DNA of 64,000 nt from Hypomesus transpacificus (taxonomy: Eukaryota; Chordata; Actinopteri; Osmeriformes; Osmeridae): contig NC_061074.1 of NCBI RefSeq assembly GCF_021917145.1, forward strand, positions 12,195,772-12,259,771. Direction: 5' to 3'. This document shows, in pieces, positions 16,208-33,304 of the stretch; the first letter of the stretch is position 1, and each line of letters opens with the position of its first letter. Position numbers and translations under genes: made by a program. Under the pieces are notes generated by a model. It saw only the letters and a list, made by a program, of their open reading frames with translations, made no database searches and was not told the DNA's origin.

Positions 16208-16390
16208 TAGATAGATATAGATATATAGATATATATGTATAATATATTATATATATTATATTTGTTATAAATGGTAGACCATTTATAACAAATATAATAT
16301 ATATAATATATTATACATATATATCTATATTTAAGACAGGCTAGCCTGCGTTTGACATTGGCCCGGTTGTTTAGAACTGTCCACGTCGAA
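15552..16390. other. AT-rich spacer between hddc2 and the tandem cluster
   Basis: It holds the hddc2 upstream region and, from about 16100, an AT microsatellite and a large palindrome. I see no gene. Confidence 0.6.
16120..16327. repeat. (AT)n microsatellite ending in a near-perfect 2-nt-loop palindrome
   Basis: AT dinucleotides and GATA units lead into two arms of about 45-48 bp that meet at AAATGGT-AG-ACCATTT (centre 16276-16277). This is a potential cruciform, directly upstream of the first cluster promoter. Confidence 0.9.
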
Positions 16391-16399
16391 ACGCAAAAT

Positions 16400-16416
16400 G
16401 AAAGAGAAAGTAAAAG
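16400..16416 (+). promoter_or_regulatory. ISRE-like element of cluster gene A
   Basis: GAAAGAGAAAGTAAAAG fits the GAAANNGAAA core bound by IRF/ISGF3 factors. It lies 135 bp upstream of the donor of the non-coding exon ending AAAG|GTAGG at 16535. The same element is present at the matching place in gene B. Confidence 0.6.
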
Positions 16417-16935
16417 TTACATCTATCATAGCATTCAATAAGTCTATGATAGGTCTATGATAAGTCTACGCTTCATATTTCGGATCCGGATTTTTGGGCT
16501 TATTTTTATCACTACCTTTTAAGTCTTCGTTAAAGGTAGGCCTATGCATGCATGCTTTGATCAACGCATTGTTCTTTTGTAAGGCCTATGGTGAATTCAG
16601 GTTGTAACATTTAACTGAACTTATAGCACAAGTTTAAAAGGCCAAACAGATAGACCCTACGCATGTCGTTTTCGGTGGAATTAATAGCTAGTCTTAAAGT
16701 TGAGGTAACATAAACGTCAGTCATTCGATTTAACGTCCGTGAAAACAAAAGCAATTTTTTTTTAGAAAAGTTAAGTATGACGTCATCTGGTGGATATTCC
16801 AGGCAAGTGTGGACACGACAAACTATTTGAGTGGTTGAATAAAACATATTGGTTATTCACACTTTAATTAGGATTTCTAACATAAATTCTTATAGTTAAC
16901 ATAATGTATGTCATGTATCTTTCCAGTGTGTAGAA

Positions 16936-30557: not shown

Positions 30558-31017
30558 GACCAAAGGCCTTGTGTCCCTTGATTAGAATGAGAACAGGATG
30601 GACTTGTTGTTTAATATCCTTAAATAAAGCATGTCATATTGTGTGACGTGTCATTGAGTTTTAATCTATCTACACAGCAAAGTTGCAGGTTTGGTCCGCA
30701 CTTCAATCAAATTCAATGGAACGAGCTGTTCGCCAAACGGAATGGCGGCTTGAGTTGTCCAGGAGACCGGGGTGGGAGTCTACCTGGCTGGGCGTGAGTG
30801 TTCCTGCTTCTCCTTCCCAGTTTACACCTGTCGGGGCCCGCTGCTGTTAACCATAGCATTGGTGACAGTCTACTAATGTCCTCCTAGACAACGACAACCC
30901 TAACAATTAGTGTCTCCTATTGTCTTCAAGAACATAGTTGGGGAGGTGATGTGGGATCAAATGCGCACAGCCCTACTAGAGACACCCCCCAGGACCACAC
31001 CTCGATACGCTTACTAG

Positions 31018-31031
31018 GAGAAAGTGAAAGC
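31018..31031 (+). promoter_or_regulatory. ISRE-like element of cluster gene E-F
   Basis: GAGAAAGTGAAAGC contains GAAAGTGAAAG. It lies 86 bp before the non-coding exon donor at 31104 (TGAG|GTAAGT). No comparable element occurs between the E and F domains. Confidence 0.65.
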
Positions 31032-31627
31032 TCTGACAGAACTGTGTGTGGGTTGAAATTAAACAGAATGCCAGATTTACGGGACCAGACTTGTTCTAAA
31101 TGAGGTAAGTGCATCCTACTTTGCATCGTCCATACTTAATTCAAACACAATGGCCATCCCTTTACGGACACAACACACGACTTACACTGCATGTTAGCCA
31201 CACTGTCTTGATGATTGTTTTAGCAGGCATATTTCTTCCAACAAATGTATTCCTAAAGGCTGTTCTTTTATACTGATATAAAACACATGGCACACTTTTG
31301 AGATTATATCATATTTTGTCAAATCATCAAGTCTGTGGGTTTGCTGTGCAACAAACTTGTCTGTGACAAGTTTTCCCTGAGGTTATGTCTGAATTTGTCA
31401 GACAAATTCAACCATAGAACTGCTGTGATACTTAGATTAGAAAATACTTGCCTGTAATAGGATATGTGGTCAGGACTGACAGCCAGATAAATCACTTTTG
31501 TACATTCTGTATATGTATATTCTCTCTGATTTGTTGTTGTGTCATAAAAACAGGGAGCTCATTGCTGCACACCTAATATACATCACCTCGAGCCTTCCTG
31601 CATCATTACATTTGTCCAGGCTTCAGT

Positions 31628-33304
31628 ATGGAGAAATTCTTCACTGTTCTGATGGGGAAAACTCTGGAGTCTCATGTGAAGATGAACAACCGTCTCACTT
31701 CTGAGGGCCTGACTGAAGTGTGGTCACCAACAAAGTGTGATTTCATCATGCTGTTTTGTGTTCCTGTCTGTGGTTTAGAAACAGATATTAAGAAAGCCCT
31801 GCAAGATATCCCCGGTAGTTATTCTGACCTGTGAAGTCTTGTATTTTTTAGAACAACTAGGGGGTATTGAAATGTAAACGTGTTGTTTCTTTCCTTTACC
31901 ACTTCTCATTCACTCGTCAGCCGGTAAACCAGTCATTCTGGTGGTGCTGCATCACAGCTTCAACCCAGACTACACTGTACCAAACAGCAGCAGACGTGTG
32001 ACCAGCAGTGATGTCATTCTCACAGTGGACTGTCTGTTCCACGACAGCAGTGGAGGACTGCTGAAGTGTCCTTGGAACGATAAAGCTGTTGATGAGATTC
32101 TGAACATGCTGAAAAGAAATCCTTGGGTTGTTCACATCTTATCATCTTGACAAAATGATTATCAGATAAACAGAATTAGAAAGCTATACATGACAAACTT
32201 TGTGAAGACTCTTTAGATTAATCTTTGATTCTCTGCCTGTCACTGACACAGGCACACACTGCGTGTGACCAAGACAACGGTTGTAAAGGTGAATTTAGGA
32301 TTAACATCTATCTACATTCTTCAGACATCTGCTTCTGCAGTGATTTCTGCTTCTTGCAAAAACATTTTAATTGTGTCTCTCCAGGGTCCAAGATGGACAC
32401 ATTCTTTTCTCTGGTTGTGGGTAATCCTATGGGATGTTATGTGGAGATGAACAGACGTCTCACCTCAAGAGGCCTGACTGAAGTGTGGTCAGCTGCCAAG
32501 TGTGATGTCATCATGGCTTACTGTCCAGTCACGTCTCGACTACAGACAGATGTCGAGGGAGCTTTAAAAAAGTTTCCAGGTCATTGCTGAAAAACTGCAA
32601 CTTGATTTGTAAACTGCTGCTGACGTTGCTGTCCCTAACGTTGTCAGACGATATGGCATTTTCATAATTTGTTGTTTGTTTCTGTTCTTCTCCTTCTTCC
32701 CCTTATTTCTCTCTGTCTCTCTTACTCTCTCTCTTCTACTCTCTCGCTCAGCCGGTAAACCAGTCATCCTAGTGGTGTTGCATCACTCAATGAAGTCGGA
32801 CTATGAAGTACCTGACAGCAGCAAATATGTGACCAGTAGTGATGTCATCCTCACAGTGGACTGTCTGTTCCATGAAAGCCGTAACGGGCTACTGAAGTGT
32901 TGCCAGAATGAAGAAGCTGTCAAGGAAGTGTTGAAGAAGCTGAACAGGCCTCCTGAGGTTGATGATTTCATCTTACTTTTAATTGAATGAACATCTTAAG
33001 ACTTGAATATTTGATTTGTATGTTGTTAATATTATACCTTCCTTCCAGCATTCTTTCCAGATCCTCTCCAGAGTTTGGGAAATTGGAAGTCACCTGAAGA
33101 CCTGGAACTGGATCTGGAACTGGCTGTCAGGTAGGGTTAATTATAATCCCCAACATCGAAAAAAACGGATGAAAACAGATAAATGAGTTAAAGGGTCTCC
33201 ATTGTCTTTAACATATTTTTCTTTTTCTTTTGCTAGGTGTTCTGATATCATACTTTGCTAGATTCAAGTCACTTGGTAGAAGACGAAAAACCATTTCACA
33301 ATGA
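31628..33304 (+). CDS. Cluster gene E-F: two tandem core domains plus Trp-rich basic tail
   Basis: Exons 31628-31814, 31921-32126, 32252-32288 (linker), 32385-32579, 32752-32957, 33049-33130 and 33237-33304 total 981 nt, 326 residues, with every phase matching. Domain 1 (MEKFFTVLMGKTLESHVKM) has lost the SRxGTD motif (CGLETD), while domain 2 (MDTFFSLVVGNPMGCYVEM) keeps SRLQTD. The linker exon codes for AHTACDQDNGCK and joins in frame to GSKMDTFF, so the F start codon becomes internal. The tail WEIGSHLKTWNWIWNWLSG then FARFKSLGRRRKTISQ looks like an amphipathic, membrane-binding helix followed by a basic end. Alternatively E could stop alone after WVVHILSS (stop ending 32150) and F could be a separate gene, but F has no promoter element or non-coding exon of its own. 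Confidence 0.72.

Follow-up and report, generated by a model that had tools for sequence, protein, structure and literature searches.

A 64,000-nucleotide (nt) window of the Hypomesus transpacificus genome (contig NC_061074.1) contains a tandem cluster of unnamed genes whose core domain resembles parts of the polyproteins of fish RNA viruses. The cluster, flanked by hddc2 and a triadin-type gene, consists of a pseudogene and five gene units (A to E); together the units hold six intact two-exon cores, and the whole cluster lies on the + strand (Table 1). An earlier note on this DNA had proposed five units and a pseudogene sharing a core of two coding exons with fixed phases, and gene models and tblastn both bear this out: queried with the six cores across the whole 64 kb, tblastn returned the 12 core exons and the exon-2 remnant of the pseudogene, and nothing elsewhere. 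In every core the first exon has 187 coding nt and ends in phase 1, and the second has 194-206 nt and ends in phase 0 at a GT. The narrower range of 203-206 nt first proposed for the second exon holds for units A and B (203 nt each), unit D and the second core of unit E (206 nt each), but not for unit C (194 nt); in the first core of unit E a length of 206 nt fits, and the stop at 32150 is more likely reached. Unit E contains two complete cores, E1 and E2, with one promoter and leader exon for both. Protein identity between the cores is 57-95%, 45 of the 131 alignment columns are invariant among the six, and the conserved motifs described beforehand are present. The ratio of nonsynonymous to synonymous substitution rates (dN/dS) is 0.37-0.72 in 14 of 15 core pairs, which indicates purifying selection and counts in favor of the interpretation developed below; A/B is the sole pair above 1 (1.21), at a dS of only 0.02.

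The core of unit A is identical to that of an annotated H. transpacificus protein, P0001 (LOC124477682 isoform X3). As a whole, P0001 joins the unit A core to a tail identical to the membrane exon of unit B (16936-17618 plus 23232-23441), and this mosaic reflects either splicing across units or two assemblies with different copy arrangements. A further family member, P0035 (LOC124468729), lies on a different contig, so that the cluster is one of at least two Hypomesus loci; an insertion between hddc2 and trdn, as first suggested, fits the Hypomesus genome here but does not account for this second locus.

To compare the family with viruses, predicted viral structures were searched by fold, with P0001 and a salmonid core, P0007, as queries. 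The best match of P0001 is replicase polyprotein 1ab of Chinook salmon bafinivirus (A0A2P1GMV5_1; expectation value (E) 1.1e-13, 35% identity, 146 columns), followed by the polyprotein of Wenling yellow goosefish calicivirus (A0A2P1GMK5_1; E 7.5e-8, 24% identity) and the viral protein A0A8F0WPF4 (E 6e-4, 39% over 62 columns). P0007 recovers the bafinivirus polyprotein at E 2.8e-14, with a template modeling (TM) score of 0.90, 1.7 Å and 42% identity over 134 columns, and the calicivirus polyprotein at E 3.1e-7 (TM 0.74, 3.7 Å, 25% identity). In A0A8F0WPF4 it matches piece 1 with 47% identity (E 2e-3) and piece 2 with 39% (E 4e-3), each over ~60 columns. Unrelated rows begin at about E 1e-2, with deoxyribosyltransferases for P0001 and small GTPases at 8-10% identity for P0007. 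Because of its 42% identity and TM of 0.90, the bafinivirus match is taken as homology; the piece label indicates that the viral domain falls in the first 1366-residue piece. Weaker than this nidovirus match, the calicivirus match still stands far above the remaining rows, and the half-domain matches in two pieces of A0A8F0WPF4 possibly mark a third virus with copies.

Significant similarity in both sequence and fold between a viral domain and a host family, the sign by which we recognize capture of a host gene, was found here, and we regard capture of this domain by fish RNA viruses as very probable. Transfer from host to virus is the simpler direction: the host family ranges from gar to percomorphs, exists in multiple copies and has introns in the Hypomesus genome, and the direction is inferred on these grounds. 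The matching viruses belong to two families, Tobaniviridae (the bafinivirus) and Caliciviridae (the goosefish calicivirus). A fuller scenario, in which at least two independent captures occurred in these families, possibly with a third virus, and the copies serve as decoys against undescribed membrane-anchored effectors, is put forward tentatively and stands somewhat below an even chance. In the available portions of two bafinivirus papers (PMC7290303, PMC9230003) a core-like domain goes unmentioned, the word "domain" being absent from one and appearing in the other a single time, in a reference, and viral copies of the family are not described in the titles listed from open-licence papers. 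According to the available portion of the first of these papers, some Chinook salmon bafinivirus isolates have deletions in polyprotein 1a that measure 537 nt, in a region of high variability, and 480 nt (PMC7290303). These deletions are each about the size of one core plus linker.

A close parallel lies in the viral phosphodiesterases of AKAP7-like origin found in nidoviruses and rotaviruses. In the part of the source available, the torovirus phosphodiesterase is a 141-residue domain of polyprotein 1a with ~39% identity to host AKAP7, and host-derived nidovirus phosphodiesterases antagonize OAS-RNase L (PMC10835031). Both cases place a host domain of ~140 residues in a nidovirus polyprotein, here at 42% identity over 134 columns. 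They differ in the domain itself, in a source family known only from ray-finned fishes and carrying interferon-type promoters, and in the presence of a calicivirus among the viral matches.

The promoters of the cluster carry elements of the type of the interferon-stimulated response element (ISRE), bound by interferon regulatory factors (IRFs). In the earlier note an element of this kind preceded every unit; the exact sequence GAAANNGAAA occurs in four of the six promoters (A, B, C and E), and in its place unit D has AAAAGTGAAA and the pseudogene GAAAGTGGAAGTGAAA. Its 13 sites on both strands of the window exceed the 2.8 (standard deviation 1.7) of shuffled sequences; five of them belong to those four promoters, and eight lie elsewhere. 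Confinement holds for the tighter ISRE/IRF-type motif RRAAGTRAAA on the + strand, where all seven sites in the 64 kb fall inside the six promoters (0.94 expected per strand); its three sites on the - strand lie outside them. The promoters are related in twos (A with B, the pseudogene with C, D with E), so that the sites are not six independent events and duplication accounts for part of the repetition. Across the three promoter classes the ISRE-type site is the best aligned block, which counts in favor of the interpretation given here. The distance from element start to the donor of the predicted leader exon (AG|GTA) is 67-150 bp, and an ISRE/IRF-type element close upstream of the start, which we take as one mark of an interferon-stimulated gene, is found in the Hypomesus genome with predicted starts. 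From these sequence features, the genes are likely to be inducible by interferon. A perfect GAAAGTGAAA also occurs on the - strand at 17620-17629, directly after unit A core exon 2 and outside the recognized promoters.

The gig genes had been named as a group for comparison. Gig1 (PTHR38706) is described as a fish-specific interferon-stimulated family with three tandem Atlantic salmon copies that respond to virus, and the available part of the source gives the salmon gig1-like genes a whole reading frame in the second exon, coding for 222-240 amino acids (PMC12247413). Compared by exon structure only, and as far as that part of the source extends, the likeness fails: the Gig1 frame lies wholly in the second of two exons, whereas the core of the present cluster spans two coding exons and is followed by tails that vary.

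These tails differ from unit to unit. In units A and B the terminal exon is hydrophobic (hydropathy >3), and a short alternative exon would give a putative soluble form. Unit C has a Pro-rich repeat, and unit D carries a membrane segment and, 1.4 kb downstream, perhaps a repeat tail. The open frame of the latter contains 42-nt and 12/48-nt repeats and would be in frame as the last exon of the unit. E1 reaches a stop shortly past the core, and the tail of E2 is weakly hydrophobic with a basic end. Among 228 collected family proteins, core stretches, partial ones included, number one in 125 proteins, two in 79, three in 20 and four in 4. Without P0109, which is a fragment from the window itself, and without the 39 proteins whose tails are shorter than 15 residues, 188 tails remain. 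A strong hydrophobic segment is present in 48 of them (18.9 expected from shuffling), a Cys four from the end in 18 (e.g. KKKKCVIL, RRHCILL, GEAGCCCIF) and a run of at least three Cys in 15; at least one of these three anchor types is present in 71.

That the core domain also turns up in viral polyproteins points to an antiviral role of these genes and to the uptake of a copy by viruses. We favor, with moderate confidence, the interpretation that the cluster encodes interferon-inducible antiviral proteins, some of them membrane-anchored, which the viral copies mimic or block; the reading first given to the locus, as an interferon-inducible effector family, is in this respect partly supported. 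The family product would comprise a ~130-residue Rossmann/flavodoxin-like core, often in tandem in relatives, and then a variable tail, which through a transmembrane segment, CaaX box or cysteine cluster may tie part of the family to membranes. IRFs or ISGF3 acting on GAAAGTGAAA-type sites would turn the genes on, and the cores would work in the cytoplasm, with the anchored forms at membranes, where plus-strand RNA viruses replicate. The core copies that a tobanivirus and a calicivirus appear, by fold and sequence similarity, to carry within their polyproteins would then most likely be decoys or dominant-negative mimics of the host proteins; taken alone, a decoy function is a plausible proposal to which we give nearly even weight.

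Structure prediction bears on what the core itself may do. For P0001, AlphaFold2 gave 10-residue means of the predicted local distance difference test (pLDDT) of 96-98 over most of the core and 85-89 near its end, and the mean pLDDT for the second member, P0007, was 90. On these models, the core can be described with confidence as an alternating alpha/beta domain of Rossmann/flavodoxin type. Foldseek returned no PDB row at E 1e-3 (best 2.7e-3), and realignment left a large number of PDB rows level with one another (Z to 9.5 and 10.2): flavodoxins, GTPases and response regulators appear for both queries, DNPH1 and a TIR-STING for P0001 only. For the predicted models, these rows point to a common fold and nothing narrower. 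Thirteen residues (C44, S48, G51, T52, D53, K65, H73, H74, S85, T97, V98, C100 and N115) are conserved in 92-100% of 60 sequences, and the top polar residues (S48, G51-T52-D53, H73-H74, D84-S85, D99 and H103) in 83-98%. The most conserved polar residues fall mostly at or after the C-terminal ends of strands in the model. Folds of this type usually bind ligands at these strand ends, and the core therefore probably binds a ligand or partner there. The foremost alternative is that the core is an enzyme or ligand-binding domain for a nucleotide or NAD-type substrate, as in DNPH1, deoxyribosyltransferases and TIR, that its chemistry is common to host and virus, and that the virus took an activity, for instance one that destroys a defense signal, rather than a decoy. 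The core shares with DNPH1, nucleoside 2-deoxyribosyltransferases and TIR domains its general fold and the position of conserved polar residues mostly at strand ends, but it has no profile match to them, and flavodoxins or GTPases score just as well structurally. As response regulators too match equally well, alignment A3 (68 members) has no Pfam match at E 1e-3, and the viral match comes from fold rows that give no view of the viral residues, we consider the enzymatic alternative unlikely, if worth keeping in mind.

None of the 68 A3 members matches NCBIfam or PADLOC at E 0.01, and profile comparison with the PDB gave no significant sequence match. When 26 members outside A3 were scanned against Pfam, only two passed the cut-off with a significant stretch: loach P0206 with iSTAND (PF19995; 31.1 vs 24 bits, residues 214-287) and P0217 with V-set. 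Two more ostariophysan members, from catfish and carp, fall below the iSTAND cut-off (P0205, 20.8 bits; P0204, 17.0 bits). These matches offer a possible lead on the deeper ancestry of the core domain, not a sign of family membership. On a second alternative, the core would be a worn-down STAND/P-loop-type domain (iSTAND, inactive STAND) that serves as an immune-signaling adaptor or scaffold, its tandem copies and tails building complexes. The iSTAND match of P0206 and the frequency of GTPase-fold rows in the PDB list of P0007 agree with this, but the matching stretch is the first half of a core only, no P-loop is evident, and the 68 A3 members are without a match at E 1e-3; such a scaffold appears a little less probable still than an enzyme. 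In cyprinids, predicted proteins combine two cores with an immunoglobulin V-set domain, P0217 above the cut-off and P0214 just below it. A gasdermin fusion in P0125 was rejected, as the match (23 vs a 25-bit cut-off) lies inside the repeated core; DUF5024 (P0125), DUF2201 (P0121) and ZNF380_CC (P0189) reach the cut-off with no significant single stretch, in repeated core pieces, and are regarded as repeat noise; and a SAM-like stretch seen by eye in P0130 found no Pfam or PDB-sequence support.

The claim that the family is lineage-specific was supported. At E 1e-3, two protein searches yielded 149 and 200 relatives. Among the 120 listed for each, every relative with a species name comes from a ray-finned fish: gar, Megalops, Albula, Alosa, characins, cyprinids, loaches, catfishes, salmonids, pike and relatives, smelts, Lampris, Centroberyx, Kryptolebias, Amphiprion and Genypterus. 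In prokaryote genomes, none of 44 pattern matches was confirmed as a relative. A tree of 59 domains has 24 of its 56 inner branches well supported and leaves the deep order unresolved, so that orthology across fishes is not claimed. In open-licence papers, searches by PANTHER, zebrafish and locus names and by conserved peptides brought up no description of the family; one of them led only to the Gig1 paper.

Several observations weigh against an antiviral family with viral mimics. The viral copies are known as rows of a fold search; among IMG/VR contigs none of six pattern matches was confirmed as a viral relative, and a long-protein search gave 142 candidates with none at E 10, a weak negative given an intron inside the core of the query. 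RRAAGTRAAA, with its seven promoter sites, was picked after the promoters had been inspected, the ISRE-like sites are common by descent within promoter pairs, and leader exons and transcription starts are known by prediction. Clear positive selection was not found by dN/dS among the 15 pairs of window cores. Lastly, 117 of the 188 tails have none of the three anchor types, in counts that take isoforms separately and include many unverified predictions. The paired promoters and the lack of a viral relative in the IMG/VR and long-protein scans would also suit an ordinary tandem family with no antiviral role, its ISRE-like sites duplicated from one ancestral promoter and the viral similarity due to assembly artefact or unrelated use of a fish domain, but two named viruses of different families and a third protein match far below the E of unrelated rows, and the site is the best aligned block across three promoter classes, which makes this alternative improbable.

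Among the genes of fish interferon responses are unnamed, lineage-specific ones whose importance is difficult to judge. A copy in a viral replicase polyprotein would be evidence, supplied by the viruses, that this family is relevant to infection, and would make it a candidate for study in farmed and threatened fishes, as salmonids and smelts carry members. It also offers a starting point for interpreting an unassigned part of the polyproteins of fish nidoviruses and caliciviruses. The host genes captured by RNA viruses would then include a family that is known only from fish and has interferon-type promoters.

Table 1. Features of the cluster, in window positions
Feature	Position	Strand	Basis
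Unit A ISRE/IRF-type element GAAAGAGAAAGTAAAA	16400..16415	+	motif and promoter comparison
Unit A start and leader-exon stretch, donor after 16535	16416..16535	+	predicted
Unit A core exon 1, ATG to phase-1 donor	16936..17122	+	tblastn; identical to P0001
Unit A core exon 2	17416..17618	+	gene model, tblastn
Unit A alternative short last exon (putative soluble form)	17712..17735	+	predicted
Unit A membrane-segment last exon	18743..18970	+	predicted
Pseudogene: ISRE-like element 19651-19666, exon-2 remnant 19725-19952	19651..19952	+	motif, tblastn
Unit B ISRE/IRF-type element	21085..21100	+	motif and promoter comparison
Unit B core exon 1	22200..22386	+	gene model, tblastn
Unit B core exon 2	22684..22886	+	gene model, tblastn
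Unit B alternative short last exon	22980..23003	+	predicted
Unit B membrane-segment last exon	23232..23441	+	gene model; tail matches annotated P0001
Unit C ISRE/IRF-type element	24214..24229	+	motif and promoter comparison
Unit C core exon 1	25190..25376	+	gene model, tblastn
Unit C core exon 2	25468..25661	+	gene model, tblastn
Unit C Pro-rich repeat tail	25761..26009	+	predicted
Unit D ISRE/IRF-type element AAAAGTGAAA	27598..27607	+	motif and promoter comparison
Unit D core exon 1	27783..27969	+	gene model, tblastn
Unit D core exon 2	28100..28305	+	gene model, tblastn
Unit D membrane-segment exon	28419..28578	+	predicted
Unit D possible last exon (repeat tail)	30022..30557	+	weak
Unit E ISRE/IRF-type element	31020..31029	+	motif and promoter comparison
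Unit E core 1 exon 1	31628..31814	+	gene model, tblastn
Unit E core 1 exon 2, read to stop	31921..32150	+	gene model, tblastn
Unit E core 2 exon 1	32393..32579	+	gene model, tblastn
Unit E core 2 exon 2	32752..32957	+	gene model, tblastn
Unit E core 2 tail exon 1	33049..33130	+	predicted
Unit E core 2 tail exon 2 (basic end)	33237..33304	+	predicted

On the flanks of the cluster, hddc2 is identified by the HD_3 profile above its cut-off and by PDB HDDC2 at E 5e-14; a first exon of this gene placed by eye near 15.5 kb gained no support from the checks made. The gene on the other side has an Asp-B-Hydro_N N-terminus, of the type common to triadin and ASPH. Directly after unit E, at 33567-33620, lies a UnaL2 LINE (long interspersed nuclear element) 3' element (Rfam RF00436, 64.9 bits).

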